A stretch of 21,228 nt of DNA from a virus. The notes under the pieces were generated by a model. It searched no databases. It had not been told where the DNA came from and saw only the letters and a program-made list of their open reading frames with translations. Position numbers and translations under genes: made by a program. Numbering within the stretch: position 1 is the first letter of the stretch; each line of letters starts with the position of its first letter. The stretch spans positions 1 to 21,228 of IMG/VR virus record IMGVR_UViG_3300032315_000691; one strand, given 5' to 3'. Of the stretch, positions 4,856 to 14,308 are shown one piece after another.

Positions 4856-7800
4856 ATGGCAGAAAAAGACTTTGTCGTTAAAAATGGTTTAATAGTAAAC
4901 ACCAGCTTGATTTTCGCTAATGGCGATATAGCTCGTGTAGGTATTAACAACACATCACCAGATGCATCATTAACAGTTACAGGAACAGCCAATGTTTCCG
5001 GCAACGTTACATTAAGTTCGAATCTAACTGTTGTTGGTACAGTTGTTCCTGGTAGAATCCTTGTTGGTAATACAACAATAAATGCCACACAAAACAGCTC
5101 CCTTTTACAAGTTTCGAATTCAACAGCCACAGCTAATCTAACTGCAGTTGACTTGAAAATCGGTACAACAACAGTTAACACAACTGCAGTTTCTGTCGGC
5201 GTTTCTCAGTTATCTAGCGATAGAATATCAGTTGGTAATTCTACTACCAATGCGTTCATGGGAAATAATGGCGTTAATACGGTATTACTAACTGTCGCCA
5301 ATTCAACAATCGAAGTTGACATTACACCCGCTAGTATTACCATTGGTAATTCAGTTGTCAATTCAACTGTAAATTCTACTGCTTTTAATGGTACATCGAA
5401 TAATTCAACTAATTTTGCTGGACAAGCGGCTTCTTATTACGCAAATGCAGAAAACTTAACAATCGGCACATTACTCAATGCTCGTTTGTCTGCTCAAGTC
5501 GTAAATACTTCTGGATCATTCACACTTTCTGGAAACACATCGTTAGCTGGCACAAATACAACTATTTCTAGTAACGTTAATATTACTGGGTCTTTCTTAA
5601 ACGTAGCTTCAGCTTTTGTTACAAATTCTACTGGTGCTTATCACACAGGAACTATAAACGCTGCTTCACATACTGTTGGAGCAAACATTGTAGCTAATAG
5701 TACAGGTATTACATTTGTTGGAAACACTACAAAACCAACCATTGCGATTTCTAATAGTGGTTCTATTGCTATTGGTAACAGCACTACAAATACCACAGCA
5801 ATTTCTATATTATTAGCTAACGATTCTACAAGCGCAAGCATATCACCTGCTGGGTTTACTGGTAATGGATTTAACTTAACTGTAGCTGCCGCTAATATTA
5901 CCAGCGGAACAATTGCCTCAGCTAGAATTTCGGGCGCATACACTGGTATAACTTCTGTTGGAACATTATCTACTCTAACATCAGGTAATGTCTCTTTAGG
6001 TTCTTCTTTACTACAAGTAAATTCTTCTGCTGGTAACATTAATACCGTTTCTATCGGAACTGCTAATGTCAACGTTGATTCCGGTGTTCTGTTTGTAGAT
6101 AGTATTAATAACAGAGTTGGTATCAATAATACTGGACCAGATGCTGCGCTAACAGTAACAGGATCTGCTAATGTTTCTGGTGATTTGAGAGTTCAAGGTA
6201 ACTTCTTTATCACAGGTACAACTACACAAACTGGTACAACAGAATATACTGGTTCTTTAACTCCTACTGCAAATAATATAAATCTTGGTAATGCGTCACA
6301 ACTTTGGATCTTGTACGCCAACACTGGTTATTTTAACAGTAACGTTAATTTTGGGGCTAATCTATTAATTAATTCTGCTGCAGTGGTATGGACTGGTAAT
6401 TCAACTACTTCGCCAACAATAACATTCGCAAATAGTGGTAATGTTACCATTGGTAACAGTACAACAACTCAAACTTCTGGTCGTTTAAATATCAGTAATA
6501 CAGCTGGTAACGTTAATATTACTACTGTTAACGTTTCTGTATCTAATTCTACAACAAGCGCGAATATCACAGCTGCTGGTTTCTTCGGAAATGGCTCTGC
6601 TTTAACTTCACTGAATGCTGATAACTTGACAACAGGAACTCTCGCATACGCTAGAATTCCTGCCAATATTGTTAACACTACTGGTTCGTTCACGCTTTCT
6701 GGTAATACTGTTCTGGGTGGCACGGCAACTTCGCTAACAAGTAATATAAACCTTGGTGGTGCTTCTTTACTGATTGATGCTAATACAACTTCAATCGGCA
6801 TAGTTGCAAACACAACAGGATTTAATAGCGCAACTGATACTTTGTCTGTATCTAATGCTAACATTAGAATGCAGCTGAATGACAGAGTGTATTATTTTGT
6901 GCCTTCAGGTAATACACCTATTGCTTCATTATCTGGTAACACGTATTATTTCGTTTCGTTTGTTAACAGCTCTGCGGTTGCGTTTTCTACGACAGCTGGC
7001 GGTTCTAACGTTGACATAACCGATGTTCGAACAACCAATCCTGCTGAATCACACAGTATAAAATTCGACGCTTTAATTGTTTATAACTCAGCATCCAATA
7101 ACTCTATATTTACAGTAAATGCAAGCCTTCTTTCTCATACAGGAAGAATAAATGCTGCTTCACACACTGTTGGCGCTAATATTGTTGCTAACAGTACAGG
7201 CATTGTTTTTGTAGGTAATTCAACTACTTCACCGACAGTAACTCTAGCTAACACTGGCTCGTTTACTGTTGGTAATAGCACAACCACTCAAACCACTTCT
7301 ATCATTTCTATCGCTAACAGCGCAACTAGCGCAAACATTACACCAGCTGGTTTCTTCGGTAATGGCGCAAGTTTAACTTCGTTAAATGCTGATAATTTAA
7401 CAAGCGGTGCGTTGGCTTATGCTAGAATACCAGCCAATATCGTTAATACAACAGGATCGTTTACACTATCAGGCAACACTACTCTTGCTGGAACAAATAC
7501 AGCAATATCGTCAAATGTTAATATCACCGGAGCATTCCTAAACGTAGCTTCTTCGTTCCTTGCTAACTCTACTGGAGCTTATCATACGGGAACAGTCAAT
7601 GCTGCTTCGCACACAGTAGGAACATCTACAGTTGCTAACTCTACTGGTGTGTATACAGGCATTGTTAATGCTGCTTCGCATACTGTTGGCGCTAATATTG
7701 TTGCTAATACAGTTGGTATTACTTTTGTAGGAAATACAACAACTTCTCCTACAATCGCATTAGCTAATACTGGTTCGTTTACTATCGGTAGTGGTACCAC

Positions 7801-9447: not shown

Positions 9448-9960
9448 ATGTCAACATTACAGGTCGCAAACATACATCTTGAATCTACAGCCAATAACAG
9501 ATTTCAATATATGGGATCTAACACCATAACAATGTTTACTGGTGGTTTAGCTGCCTTTACTGCTAATGACACTACATCTGTTGTGGCAGGAAACTTTATT
9601 GGTAGCAACACTCTTATTGGTCCAGGAACTGTAAGCAATGGTTACAGATTGTATGTTAATGGAACTATCTACGCAACAGGCGATATCACTGCTCTTTCGG
9701 ATATTTCTGTTAAGGACAATATCATGACAATAACAAACGCCCTTGATACTGTAGGTAATCTAAGAGGCGTTTCTTATACAGTTAAGGAAACTGGCGAAGA
9801 AAAAATAGGTCTTATTGCTCAGGAAGTTAAGAAAGTATTGCCTGAAGTTGTTGTGGAAAATTCTGACAATATTGGTATTGCTTATCAAAACATAGTAGCT
9901 GTTCTGATCGAAGCGGTGAAAGAATTGAAAAAGAAAGTGGAAGATTTGGAGTCTAAGTAA
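9448..9960 (+). CDS. Small fibre with peptidase S74 intramolecular chaperone domain, 170 aa
   Basis: Residues 1-83 are a short fibre segment (MSTLQVANIHLES... GYRLYVNGTIYATGDITAL). Residues 84-170 form an S74 / intramolecular chaperone of endosialidase type: S84-D85-ISV-K89-DNI holds the Ser/Lys dyad used for self-cleavage, followed by ALDTVGNLRGVSY, IGLIAQEVKKVLPEVV and a C-terminal helix (IAYQNIVAVLIEAVKELKKK). Such domains trimerise the upstream fibre, then cut themselves off just before the Ser. AGGAG at 9435-9439 sets the ATG at 9448. The passenger left after cleavage would be only ~83 residues, unusually short. It may serve in cis for this small tip, or act on a neighbouring fibre (speculative). 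Confidence 0.88.
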   Translation: MSTLQVANIHLESTANNRFQYMGSNTITMFTGGLAAFTANDTTSVVAGNFIGSNTLIGPGTVSNGYRLYVNGTIYATGDITALSDISVKDNIMTITNALDTVGNLRGVSYTVKETGEEKIGLIAQEVKKVLPEVVVENSDNIGIAYQNIVAVLIEAVKELKKKVEDLESK

Positions 9961-9963
9961 ATT

Positions 9964-11154
9964 ATGGTAGCAACAACTAATGTTTCTTTTGCAGCAATAT
10001 CTTTAGAACTAGACGGAACTCCTGGTACTGCATTTAGCATGAGTAATGCTTTTATGAGGTCTACTCTTAGTACTGGTCCTTCGACTCCAGGTACAGCTAT
10101 TAGTGTATCTGATGTTGCTGGTGCATTTTATAAAACGTTTACCATTAGCACAAACACAGCCAATTATAACATATATGACGCAATTGCTGCAGCTGGATGG
10201 ACTGGTATTAAAAGAGCAACAGCAAACGTAACTCTTGTTTCTCCTTCACCAACTACTGTTCAAACTGTGTTATATTCATCATCAACTGCAAATGCTGCTT
10301 TAGAATCTGGATCATTTCCTGGTTCAGCGCCCGCAAATGTCAGAATCGTTACTGGTGTAAACACATTTATCGTAGGTATGGGAGGTGCAGGCGGTGCTGG
10401 TGGGCTTGCTTCTGCTCCTGTTCCACCATCAGGAACAAATTACGCTACCGATCCTGGTGATCCTGGATCGCCCGGAGGCCATGCAATACGGCTAACCTCT
10501 GCAGCAACATATACTATCGTAAACTCCGGTACTATTGGTGGCGGTGGTGGAGGTGGAGGTGGAGGTGGAGATTGGGATTCTGCGACAGCACCATCCCCGT
10601 CACCACCATCACCGCCTTGTTTAGCTGCTGATAGTCAAATATTAATGTATGATGGCACTACAAAAAATATCTGCGATATAGTTTCTGGAGATAAATTAAA
10701 AACGCTCACAGGCGAAATAGGTACTGTGCTTTATTTAAATCCAACTACGTTAAAACGACACAGAAAAATTGTTCGTCTTAAAACTAATGAAAATGCAAAA
10801 CCATTAAGAATAACAGATGATCATGAGTTGTGGGTTAAAGACGAAACAGGCGAACGTTTTGGTATTTACAATTATAACAGCTGGTTACAAGACGAAATTG
10901 TATTGCCATCGCATAAATCTGGCGACCCGATATATGATATGAAAATTTTATCTCCTTTAGGTGTTCATAATTTTGCTACTGTAGATGGATGGACAAAAAC
11001 TAGCTGCGAATGGGAAATAAACTCTGATCCCGATGAACCTGTTTATTGTATTATGTTAGACAAAGGAGTAGGTTTCATAGCGGATGGTTTTGTTGTCGGT
11101 AATGATGACTGGTATGATAAACAATTGATAGGTGTTTCTTGGAAAGGCGTATGA
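9964..11154 (+). CDS. Gly-rich tail adhesin fused to a Hint (intein/hedgehog-type) domain, 396 aa
   Basis: Residues 1-190 look like a Gly-rich phage tail protein (AGAFYKTFTISTNTANYNI, later GVNTFIVGMGGAGGAGG and GGHAIRLTSAATYTIVNSG). A run of 11 Gly (encoded at 10537-10569) and a Pro/Ser linker (APSPSPPSPP, residues 209-218) lead to C219. From there CLAADSQILMYDGTTKNICD and VSGDKL match the N-terminal splicing block of Hint domains; TDDH at 284-287 matches the T-x-x-H motif; VYCIMLDKGVGFIADGFVVG then N380 matches the C-terminal block. The usual penultimate His is Gly (G379) and residue +1 is Asp (D381), not Cys/Ser/Thr, so normal splicing is unlikely while cleavage at C219 remains possible. 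A 16-residue tail follows. The Gly-rich fold lacks its usual C-terminus, which seems to be the ORF at 11803. The stop overlaps the next ATG. Confidence 0.85.
   Translation: MVATTNVSFAAISLELDGTPGTAFSMSNAFMRSTLSTGPSTPGTAISVSDVAGAFYKTFTISTNTANYNIYDAIAAAGWTGIKRATANVTLVSPSPTTVQTVLYSSSTANAALESGSFPGSAPANVRIVTGVNTFIVGMGGAGGAGGLASAPVPPSGTNYATDPGDPGSPGGHAIRLTSAATYTIVNSGTIGGGGGGGGGGGDWDSATAPSPSPPSPPCLAADSQILMYDGTTKNICDIVSGDKLKTLTGEIGTVLYLNPTTLKRHRKIVRLKTNENAKPLRITDDHELWVKDETGERFGIYNYNSWLQDEIVLPSHKSGDPIYDMKILSPLGVHNFATVDGWTKTSCEWEINSDPDEPVYCIMLDKGVGFIADGFVVGNDDWYDKQLIGVSWKGV
10618..11103 (+). other. Hint domain coding segment
   Basis: Encodes residues 219-380 (162 aa). That is the size of a mini-intein or bacterial intein-like domain without a homing endonuclease. 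Present: Cys1, the T-x-x-H block and a terminal Asn. Absent: the penultimate His and a +1 nucleophile. The residue before Cys1 is Pro, which is generally unfavourable for the first acyl shift. Confidence 0.82.
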
Positions 11155-11801
11155 ATTATATTTTCTCTATGGGGTTGTATAGATCTGGTACTAACTATCT
11201 ACAACAACTTTTTGATAAAAATTTTAAAAACAATTCTGGTAAAATTCAAAAATATATTTTAGAAGGAAAGTTAAATAGGCATAGTTTACACGATAGTTGG
11301 TATAATAAGATGCCAAACGATCTTGTTCCTGTAATTATATATAAAGATCCATTTAAATGGATTGATAGTCTATACCGAAAATCTTATGACTTAGAATTGT
11401 TTTATGACGTACATTATGAAACAGGGCATACAGAGATATATTTACCGTTTGAAGACCCTGATAATGAAGGGTATATTGCAGAAGTTCGTTGCAGCGTAGA
11501 AAAACTTTGTAAACTGTACAATAGGTATTTTACATATTGGTCGAATAAAAATGTTGAAATGGTTTCACATAAAAAAATGATTTGTGAAACTGAAAATTGT
11601 TTATCTTATTTTCAAAATAAATATTCTTTACAAAGGATAAATGAAAATTTTACCATGTTGGAAGTTGATGAAGTAGATGGATCAAGACCGTTTACTCAAC
11701 AGGTAAAATTGTACTATGATACTAATGAAATTGAAAATTTAAACGATGTTCAAATTAAAACAATAAAATCAACTATTGATGTAAAGTTAAAGGAGTTTTA
11801 A
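11151..11801 (+). CDS. Sulfotransferase-like protein, 216 aa
   Basis: The ATG at 11151 overlaps the upstream TGA (ATGA) and is preceded by GGAAAGG (11141-11147). The N-terminus MNYIFSMGLYRSGTNYLQQL matches the 5'-phosphosulfate-binding loop of PAPS-dependent sulfotransferases ('G..RSGT..L'). VIIYKDPFKWIDSLYR at 61-76 matches the 3'-phosphate-binding segment (usually R-D-P....S..R; here K65-D66-P67 and S73). The remainder is shorter than typical cellular sulfotransferases. The gene is very AT-rich (some 60-base lines near 18-25% G+C) and lies between the two halves of a Gly-rich adhesin. Its substrate could be the adhesin, another protein or a host glycan. The family call is fairly good; an adhesin substrate is inferred from position only. 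Confidence 0.72.
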   Translation: MNYIFSMGLYRSGTNYLQQLFDKNFKNNSGKIQKYILEGKLNRHSLHDSWYNKMPNDLVPVIIYKDPFKWIDSLYRKSYDLELFYDVHYETGHTEIYLPFEDPDNEGYIAEVRCSVEKLCKLYNRYFTYWSNKNVEMVSHKKMICETENCLSYFQNKYSLQRINENFTMLEVDEVDGSRPFTQQVKLYYDTNEIENLNDVQIKTIKSTIDVKLKEF

Positions 11802-11802
11802 A

Positions 11803-12108
11803 ATGGCCGGAGGAGGCGGAGGCGGAGGTAGAGGAGGATTAACCAATTCTGCAGGAGGAGGACCTGCCGGAGGCGCTGGAACGTTTGCAGCAGCTGGCGC
11901 TGGCCAAGGAGCGCCTGGAGCTCCAGGTGATGGTGGAAATGGAGGAAATTGGGGTGCAAATGGAAGCAGCGGAAGCCCAACCAGTCCTCCAGGACCAGCA
12001 CCTTCAGCTACAGGTCCTGGAGGATCTGGTGGAACTTCTGGTAATGCAATTTCAAATTCTGCAGGTATAACTTTTACATATTCTGGCTCAGGTAGTAGGT
12101 TCGCATAA
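11803..12108 (+). CDS. Gly/Pro-rich ORF, apparent C-terminal half of the Gly-rich adhesin, 101 aa
   Basis: Translation is expected from ATG 11803 with AGGAG at 11791-11795, one base after the sulfotransferase stop. The protein opens with M-A and seven Gly, continues with Gly-rich blocks (GGNGGNWGANGSSGS) and a collagen-like stretch (GAPGAPGDGG), then SPTSPPGPAPSATGPGGSGG, and closes with GNAISNSAGITFTYSGSG. The closing strand resembles the GHAIRLTSAATYTI segment of the upstream adhesin and the usual ends of full-length Gly-rich tail proteins. It has no stalk or attachment region of its own. I read it as the missing C-terminal part of the protein at 9964, separated by the Hint and sulfotransferase insert. 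Whether it is made and joins its partner, covalently or not, cannot be told here. Confidence 0.7.
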   Translation: MAGGGGGGGRGGLTNSAGGGPAGGAGTFAAAGAGQGAPGAPGDGGNGGNWGANGSSGSPTSPPGPAPSATGPGGSGGTSGNAISNSAGITFTYSGSGSRFA

Positions 12109-13113
12109 ATGTTTGACAAAGAATGGGCGTTTAAAAATGGTGATGATATTTCACCAAGAAAGTTACCATATTTTTATACAGATCCTGTAACAAACACAGT
12201 TATAGAAATGACAAATTGTGACTATGACACTAAAAGAAACCTTGGTTGGTATCAAATTGAATTTAAAAATAATTACGAAAATAGACCTAACACTCATTGG
12301 GAAAGTGTTGGAACATTATACTATAACAAATTAAATGACTCTGTAGAATGCCATTCTTTTGTTTTAAAAGATGGTTGGAGAAATATGTTATATCAAGAAA
12401 TTGAAGCATTAATACTAAGTTATCTAGGCGAGCCAACAGAAAAAATTACGAATTTACTATTAAAAATAAATTCGTATTTTATGAATGAGAAATATGACAA
12501 TTATCAATTAGTGGAATATTACAAGATATTTAAAAATTCTGCTTATGACATAGCCATATTCGTTGATAATGTTAACGAATATGAAATAGATGGTATTACT
12601 GCTTTTGAATTATTATTTTTTGCAGAACCTAATTTTAGACAACAACCTATATTAATGAATTACATCAAGCAAAATTTAAACGATTTTGCTGGTAAAAACA
12701 TAATTTCTTTAGGTTTAACTTCTAGTTTAACAGCTGCGTATTTAAATAAAAATAACTTCAGTAGTAAAGCTCTAGATAACATTTTCTACTATTCAACGAA
12801 ATTTAGAAAATTTCATGTCAATTTAAATTGCGTTTTGACAGCAATAAACAACGATTTATATTTTGATGTACTGACAAAGGATAATTTTGATGATATTGAC
12901 GGGGATATTTTCATATTCGCTAATCCATTTTATGATAAGCAATCTGCAGCTATCAATTTACAGTACATGCAATTATTAAAACAAAAAGGCAAAAGAACTA
13001 TTATTCTTTCGCCTCCATTGTGGGACGGAAATAATGAATTTATTACGTTTCCTAAAGAAAATCTACAAGAGCTTTACACAGAAAACGGAATTACTTTATT
13101 TACTCTCAAGTAA
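12109..13113 (+). CDS. Protein of unknown function, 334 aa
   Basis: The ATG directly abuts the upstream stop. I do not recognise the family. Residues ~1-100 are rich in aromatic and charged residues (FKNGDDISPRKLPYFYTDPV, then NTHWESVGTLYYN). Residues ~190-334 alternate hydrophobic strands and helices (GKNIISLGLTSSLTAAYL, then DGDIFIFANPFYDKQSAAI, then GKRTIILSPPLWDGN), a pattern that could be a Rossmann-like alpha/beta fold such as a methyltransferase, although no clear cofactor loop is present. No signal peptide or membrane segment. It is very AT-rich, like the sulfotransferase-like gene. It ends 8 bases inside the 3' end of the minus-strand oxygenase gene. A role with the Hint/sulfotransferase cassette is suggested only by its place. 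Confidence 0.7.
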   Translation: MFDKEWAFKNGDDISPRKLPYFYTDPVTNTVIEMTNCDYDTKRNLGWYQIEFKNNYENRPNTHWESVGTLYYNKLNDSVECHSFVLKDGWRNMLYQEIEALILSYLGEPTEKITNLLLKINSYFMNEKYDNYQLVEYYKIFKNSAYDIAIFVDNVNEYEIDGITAFELLFFAEPNFRQQPILMNYIKQNLNDFAGKNIISLGLTSSLTAAYLNKNNFSSKALDNIFYYSTKFRKFHVNLNCVLTAINNDLYFDVLTKDNFDDIDGDIFIFANPFYDKQSAAINLQYMQLLKQKGKRTIILSPPLWDGNNEFITFPKENLQELYTENGITLFTLK

Positions 13114-14308
13114 AATGCGGACCGTGAATCCAACCAACTAAAGATTTTCTTACACCTTTTGTAACAGGAGTTACTTCGTGTTCAGTGTAGGCGGGAAAAA
13201 ACGCAATTAATCCTTTTTTCTTAGGCATGGCTTCTGCTCCATTAACAGTCCAAATTAATAGATCTCCGCCTTCATATTCGCTAGGATCAGAGAGAAGCAA
13301 GCTGAAAGAAAGCTTTCTTGTTTTGTGTATCACTCCGTCCGTATGTTTGGTGTATTTGCCAGGAGTTTTATCATCAGCATGATATTCAATATACGTCAAG
13401 TGTTCTATTTTATCTAGATTAAATTTGTAGTTTTCTAAATTTTGTTTTGCGATTTCTTTTTCAATTAACTTATATAACCATTCGAAATTTTTAGGATCGA
13501 TACCAGCAACATATGCGTTTCTTATGTCTTTGTTTATTGATTCCCCTTTGCCGCCGTAACCTATGGTAGCTTGTTCTAGTTCTTTTTTACCACCCTCAAC
13601 AATTAAATCAATTAATCCGCTAGACAAAAATTTTTCTTCGTAAACCCAAAGATGTTTTTCTTCCTGTTTATTACCAAAGTACCAAAATCTATCATCATAT
13701 TCTTTTCTTGGTTTTTGGGCTTGTACAATTGGTTGTTTTTGTGTTTTTAAAGATTTTCTTCCATCATACTCTAAATCTTTATACTTACCATTAGCATCGA
13801 CATAATGTAAGAAAACCTGGCACTGCCAATTTCCTTCCTTGTATGGTTGTCTCCAATGATTGATTTCCATACCTCTATAGATAAGAGCATCGCCTAATTC
13901 GACTCTATATTCTTTAGGGTTGTCTCTTTCATCAGTAGATTCTGACAGCCATATTGGCCATAAGCCGCCATCGAATCCTAGCGTAATCGTTGCGCTAATT
14001 TCGCATTCTCTTCTGTCGGTGTGAGGTTTTAGTTTTTCTCCAGGCTTATAAAAACGAGCGTAAGAGTAAGTAGGATTTAACTTCAACCCTGTTGATTCTT
14101 CCATTGCTGGCTTTAAATCTTCCAACAAAGTGTCAAACACCGGATCTCCATAAATAGAGGGCGATAAGGGACACTGATGGTCTCCTTCTTTTAAATCTTT
14201 TGATATTTTGATAAGATGTTCAGATAACATTGAACAAGTTTTATCATCAAGAATTTTGGTGATATGGACATACTTGTTGTTTTTGAAGTATTCTTGTGGC
14301 GTGCTCAT
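13106..14308 (-). CDS. Tandem 2-oxoglutarate/Fe(II) oxygenase (prolyl hydroxylase-like), two domains, 400 aa
   Basis: This is the only minus-strand gene of the window. Its ribosome binding site AGGAGAG lies at 14313-14320 (plus coordinates), before ATG 14308-14306. Domain 1 (about 1-175): ARFYKPGEKLKPHTDRRECE gives the H96-x-D98 iron ligands, and H151 (INHWRQP) is the likely distal His. Domain 2 (about 210-400): GKYTKHTDGVIHKTRKLSFS gives H322-x-D324, GLIAFFPAYTEHEVTPV the distal H377 and KGVRKSL the 2-oxoglutarate Arg R387, as in PKHD/prolyl-4-hydroxylase-type enzymes. Both metal triads look intact. A Lys/Gln-rich linker joins them. Such enzymes hydroxylate Pro, Lys or Asp residues or small molecules. 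The Pro-rich and collagen-like segments next door are possible substrates (inference). Confidence 0.87.
   Translation of the reverse strand: MSTPQEYFKNNKYVHITKILDDKTCSMLSEHLIKISKDLKEGDHQCPLSPSIYGDPVFDTLLEDLKPAMEESTGLKLNPTYSYARFYKPGEKLKPHTDRRECEISATITLGFDGGLWPIWLSESTDERDNPKEYRVELGDALIYRGMEINHWRQPYKEGNWQCQVFLHYVDANGKYKDLEYDGRKSLKTQKQPIVQAQKPRKEYDDRFWYFGNKQEEKHLWVYEEKFLSSGLIDLIVEGGKKELEQATIGYGGKGESINKDIRNAYVAGIDPKNFEWLYKLIEKEIAKQNLENYKFNLDKIEHLTYIEYHADDKTPGKYTKHTDGVIHKTRKLSFSLLLSDPSEYEGGDLLIWTVNGAEAMPKKKGLIAFFPAYTEHEVTPVTKGVRKSLVGWIHGPHFT

Follow-up and report, generated by a model that had tools for sequence, protein, structure and literature searches.

The gp38 adhesins of phages T2, S16 and PP01 (PF05268) are single polypeptides that lie at the fibre tip, are encoded after an S74/gp37-type gene and combine polyglycine motifs and a closing strand with variable loops. 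The variable distal loops are seen in the S16 gp38 structure (PMC6851490); in PP01 gp38, where loop B comprises Q161-V170, adsorption depends on residues 158-170 (PMC12892980). Here we describe an adhesin locus on a 21.2-kb fragment of an uncultured tailed phage (IMG/VR record IMGVR_UViG_3300032315_000691; 21,228 nucleotides, hereafter the window). Its product resembles these adhesins in its fibre-tip position, polyglycine motifs, closing strand and variable loops, and differs from them in being specified by two genes, in being broken at loop B and in carrying a Hint domain on the first chain. The split itself is well supported. With a probability of about 0.62, we favour a reading in which the two chains of this gp38-type adhesin, split at loop B, would co-fold, the Hint domain would remove itself and loop B would be left as free ends.

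Directly upstream of the adhesin lies an S74-chaperone-type fibre C-terminus (9448..9960, plus strand, as are all features of the adhesin locus; Peptidase_S74 E value of 2.6e-15), comparable to gene 37 preceding gene 38 in T-even phages. The open reading frame (ORF) that follows encodes 396 residues (9964-11154). Residues 98-203 match PF05268 (E value of 1.8e-7, profile positions 32-118 of 218) with 31.7 bits, above the curated cut-off of 25. The match stops at an 11-Gly run (10537-10569), which is where a preliminary description of this DNA had placed the end of the Gly-rich fold, and the unmatched rest of the profile, about 100 positions, has the length of a separate 101-residue ORF (11803..12108) that begins MAGGGGGGGRGG and carries a 7-Gly run (11809-11829). 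The two Gly runs are 1239 nt apart, and the coordinates given in that description were all correct on checking the sequence. Thus, in place of the single polypeptide of gp38 adhesins there are two ORFs with a Hint domain and a further gene, ORF220, in between, and the glycine motifs of the C-terminal part together with the closing strand are present in the separate ORF. The N-terminal part of the 396-residue protein (9964..10569; the N-half) and the 101-residue ORF (the C-half) are complementary halves of one gp38-type polyglycine adhesin.

The preliminary description had proposed that the two ORFs, when joined, make up one ordinary adhesin, and had named homologues continuous across both Gly runs as the decisive check. 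Such homologues exist in dozens. A DNA pattern for N-x-G-T-I-GGGGGG recovered about 80 loci in IMG/VR, most of which encode one continuous protein, and dozens of these uncultured-phage relatives are unsplit. In these, NNGTIGGGGGGGG leads into a variable loop that is short (median 15 residues), after which come a second run of glycines, in many cases with RTG.TNSAGG behind it, then GGNWG and, at the close, GGAAGAAV.GNS.ITW.ATGTRLG. The N-half is 34-44% identical to unsplit homologues in the alignment. The C-half had no Pfam match when searched alone. From 52 unsplit proteins, cut behind the first Gly run, we derived a profile of the C-terminal parts. The C-half scored 28.2 bits against this profile (composition-corrected), while 1000 shuffles with its Gly positions fixed averaged -3.4 and reached at most 9.6 bits, showing that the likeness exceeds shared glycine content. 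Gly-rich tail genes are common in the window, and the two ORFs could in principle encode Gly-rich tail proteins that have always been separate. We regard this as very improbable, since the profile matches the C-half and none of the other Gly-rich window proteins, which all score below zero, and since 12 other loci, each with a C-half ORF following, show the N-half fold ending at this very point.

The position of the break was mapped by aligning the N-half and C-half profiles to gp38 of T2, S16 and T6, which equates the first Gly run with glycine motif 3 (S16 residues 151-158) and the second with motif 4 (S16 residues 167-171). This places the break between them in the distal loop that is loop B of the solved gp38 structures. 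In the window this position, by the same comparison with S16, T2 and T6, is taken by the Pro-rich linker DWDSATAPSPSPPSPP (10570..10617). Motifs 3 and 4 are present in T2, T6, S16 and the unsplit relatives, so the Gly runs are parts of the ancestral fold and provide no evidence that GGN-repeat DNA guided an insertion. This idea of the preliminary description also finds no support in base composition: the guanine-cytosine (GC) content at third codon positions is uniform, at 0.18-0.24 in the N-half, the C-half, the Hint domain and ORF220, and gives no sign of recent import.

The split is not confined to the window, and is more general than the preliminary description supposed. In five loci recovered with the DNA pattern the protein ends immediately past the first Gly run, each time with a separate C-half ORF behind it. 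Scans with the C-half leader motif and with a radical S-adenosylmethionine (SAM) protein added more; when counted uniformly, N-half and C-half ORFs occur together on one strand as 12 further, distinct pairs, to which locus L070 adds one. The split gp38-type loci are L073 (1961-5367, minus strand), L185 (5635-8110), L062, L119, L123, L186, L192, L194, L196, L227, L089, L184 and L070. One candidate pair in L123, with a gap of 2621, was rejected as false, its first ORF being an unsplit protein. In these loci the N-half ends a few residues past the Gly run, and the C-half starts independently, in many cases behind a Shine-Dalgarno-like element. They are like the window in their break point and separate C-half ORF, and unlike it in lacking a Hint domain, in most often carrying a leader before the Gly run of the C-half (KRLIACGAC-like, or a CxCxCxC stretch) and in having a radical-SAM gene where the window has ORF220. 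In three loci (L073, L185 and L194) that gene separates the two halves, and in most others it is nearby, although the rate at which leader and gene co-occur is biased, as the contigs were partly collected through leader and radical-SAM searches. Its nearest named families include maturases of ribosomally synthesized and post-translationally modified peptides (RiPPs), such as PapB, far below curated cut-offs; the close family turned up in just a single genome contig. An ATP-grasp-like gene lies near the radical-SAM split adhesins of L185 (8770-10080; YheC/D-like, below cut-off) and L123 (5760-7035).

Loop B is elaborated in other ways as well. In a cyanophage-like contig (G006, 9603-20835, minus strand) about 1600 residues of YTKxW repeats interrupt the gp38 fold at this loop within a single frame of 3744 residues, and L078 and L088 are similar. 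Five unsplit homologues (L064, L065, L066, L087 and L093) have a Cys-rich loop B (GGCFTQCRQVGCCEQRCDTACAD), and no radical-SAM gene of the split-adhesin family was found in the DNA examined around them. Taken together, repeat inserts, Cys clusters, splits and the Hint domain at one site indicate that loop B tolerates additions.

An independent contig, IMGVR_UViG_3300042326_001025 (L001; 38 kb), has the same order as the window: N-half with Hint domain, a 220-residue ORF (216 residues from its ATG) and C-half. Profile scans of viral contigs with the C-half and with ORF220 each found this sister contig only, and leaderless C-halves (M-x-GGGGGGG-R) were absent beyond it among the matches listed. 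Searches of isolated phages by tblastn with the N-half, C-half and ORF220 gave no matches, for which low-complexity masking is one reason. No radical-SAM gene of the split-adhesin kind is present in the sister contig, and on present evidence the radical-SAM reading does not apply to the window phage. Between window and sister, a single pair of sequences, the ratio of non-synonymous to synonymous substitution rates (dN/dS) is 0.07 for the N-half, 0.19 for both the Hint domain and ORF220, and 0.45 for the C-half. All parts are under purifying selection, and the C-half changes fastest in this one pair, as expected for a receptor-facing part. The linker differs between the two contigs, reading DWDSSSALPDPSP in the sister.

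The starts are coupled. The ATG of ORF220 (11151..11801, 216 residues from ATG) overlaps the adhesin stop as ATGA at 11151, and the ATG of the C-half is preceded a few bases upstream by AAGGAG (11791..11796), a Shine-Dalgarno-like element kept in the sister contig. These data bear on the possibility that the Hint domain and ORF220 are a mobile insertion that broke the adhesin and left the C-half as a remnant. That unsplit relatives exist, and that the cyanophage-like relative has a repeat insertion of about 1600 residues in loop B, would fit such an event. We nevertheless consider it improbable: the insert contains no endonuclease, the C-half is intact in both contigs, carries an ATG and AAGGAG of its own and has a dN/dS below one half, third-position GC is uniform and the split recurs without a Hint domain.

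The Hint domain extends from Cys1 (C219, codon 10618-10620) to Asn380 (10618..11103). An AlphaFold2 model built from an alignment of 10 sequences had a predicted local distance difference test (pLDDT) score of 81 and a predicted template modelling score (pTM) of 0.80. Its best PDB match was BIL2 of Tetrahymena BUBL1 (Z score of 18.5, root mean square deviation of 2.0 Å over 141 residues), followed by inteins, a bacterial intein-like (BIL) domain (Z 15.2) and hedgehog (Z 14.8, 1at0), the Z scores to these groups ranging from 12 to 18.5. On this model we assign the predicted Hint fold with confidence. Cys1 and the block-B His (TxxH) are invariant in all 10 sequences, 8 of which are only 24-32% identical to that of the window. 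The splicing end is degraded, with only the Asn present of the penultimate His, terminal Asn and +1 nucleophile that characterize splicing inteins. The penultimate His is Gly in the window (Ala in the sister), residue +1 is Asp rather than Cys, Ser or Thr, and Asn380 is kept in the window (GN-D) and the sister (AN-D), while the tail-protein relatives L010, L011, L012, L015 and L036 lack it. Retention of Cys1 and His with a degraded splicing end fits an N-terminal cleaver better than a splicing intein under the published classification of Hint domains (PMC7765530), and N-terminal self-cleavage is, from these residues, likelier than splicing or ligation.

Compared with BIL domains and BIL2, the window domain shares the Hint fold, Cys1, TxxH and the lack of a +1 nucleophile, and differs in its attachment to a phage adhesin at the receptor loop and in the missing penultimate His; its tail-protein relatives lack the Asn too. 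As a putative B-type BIL or Hog-like N-terminal cleaver its residues fit, with Pro at -1 suggesting slow cleavage. Like hedgehog Hog-Hint, it is a C-terminal Hint domain with a short tail and predicted N-terminal cleavage; unlike it, the window protein has no visible sterol-recognition region and no cholesterol context. The tail, DDWYDKQLIGVSWKGV, comprises 16 residues (11104..11151) and contains a VxW element that recurs in several Hint-tail relatives. Many phage tail proteins end in a Hint domain, for instance in Providencia phage PSTNGR1 and in Achromobacter phages JWF and 2-1. These examples resemble the window protein in this C-terminal position and, for JWF and 2-1, in a VxW-like tail, and differ in having neither a gp38 N-half nor a separate C-half and, again for JWF and 2-1, in having a CxCxC stretch and a radical-SAM gene. 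In phages 2-1 (L005, 5077-8583) and JWF (L007, 3071-6592) the tail protein has NCNCDCNCSC before the Hint domain, and an uncharacterized ORF follows, then a radical-SAM gene related to those of the split adhesins (E value of 6e-22). Two tandem Hint domains occur in a large structural-looking protein of L014 and L016 (around 5001-6500). Among the loci examined, only the window and its sister carry a Hint domain on a gp38-type N-half.

The location of the Hint domain between two halves recalls a split-gene intein, and with Asn380 kept one might envisage that protein ligation or trans-splicing rejoins the halves, as the preliminary description had allowed in suggesting ligation of the N-part. We find this highly unlikely. 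The C-half lacks an intein fragment and begins with MAGGG, where there is no Cys, Ser or Thr, residue +1 after Asn380 and the penultimate residue are those of a degraded splicing end, and 12 other split adhesins manage without any Hint domain. What we regard as a serious, if rather unlikely, rival to self-removal is that the Hint domain acts in transfer (conjugation), joining the C-terminus of the N-half to a nucleophile, such as an amine, of the fibre or the host surface, much as Tetrahymena BIL2 does with ubiquitin-like domains. BIL2 in the BUBL1 locus, the best structural match, is described as making isopeptide bonds to lysine (PMC8616854), and the degraded splicing end and the conserved tail would suit transfer as well. 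On the other side, Hint similarity is broad (88 chains with Z of 5 or more), so that structure leaves the chemistry unspecified, no acceptor candidate has emerged, and the C-half has no lysine.

In the reading that we prefer, self-removal, the Hint domain would form a thioester at P218-C219 and remove itself by hydrolysis or transfer. The two chains would co-fold on the fibre tip, the C-half completing the polyglycine lattice, and what remained of loop B at the receptor-facing tip would be two free chain ends, possibly modified. Reassembly of two proteins and release of the N-part through Hint self-cleavage, both suggested in the preliminary description, are plausible. Several points weigh against this. 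The residue preceding the Hint Cys is Pro (P218) in both contigs, and Pro at -1 usually slows or disfavours the N-S acyl shift in known inteins. Retention of Asn380 makes some C-terminal cleavage possible. The C-half ends in SGSGSRFA, unlike the usual GTRLGxIx. Association of the halves and their presence in virions are predictions at this stage. Finally, the N-half with a Hint domain is known from just two related contigs.

ORF220 may modify or assist the fibre tip. The label of sulfotransferase-like, used in the preliminary description, reflects a weak similarity: motifs are recognizable by eye (RSGTNYLQQL, YKDPFKWIDSLY) and Pfam Sulfotransfer_3 matches poorly (E values of 0.19 for the window and 0.006 for the sister copy), but every family cut-off is missed, the two copies scoring 12.4 and 17.3 bits against 27 for Sulfotransfer_3. 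There was no match among PDB sequences, and the structure model (pLDDT 41) is too poor for use.

Elsewhere in the window, the tail genes and a 2-oxoglutarate (2OG) oxygenase neighbour are like those of T4-like marine phages. The oxygenase, a two-domain 2OG-Fe(II) enzyme, is encoded within the fibre cluster on the opposite strand (13106-14308, minus strand), a neighbourhood in which marine T4-like phages also have genes like it. An ORF at 168-917, adjoining the fibre genes, resembles by eye a GIY-YIG/NUMOD-type homing endonuclease.

Each component of this locus is of a known kind. We did not find the arrangement described in the open-access literature on Hint tail fibres, radical-SAM tail fibres and split Gly-rich receptor-binding proteins, and what appears new is a two-gene adhesin cut at its receptor loop together with processing or modifying enzymes. 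A broader proposal, which we put forward tentatively and hold to be somewhat less probable than its converse, is that tailed phages repeatedly assemble polyglycine adhesins from two chains, with the cut at loop B, and that the exposed ends would undergo chemical elaboration, through a Hint domain in the window phage and in other phages through a radical-SAM enzyme (nearest to PapB ranthipeptide maturases, far below cut-off) acting on a CGAC or CxCxC leader, so that host recognition would proceed through a post-translational, RiPP-like tip. The break shows where a polyglycine sandwich is naturally divided, and the role of Hint domains on phage tail proteins is directly testable. The loops of gp38 determine the bacterial host range of the phage, and if the proposal is true, the recurrent loop split with its modifying enzymes would give receptor contact a chemistry beyond the 20 amino acids.
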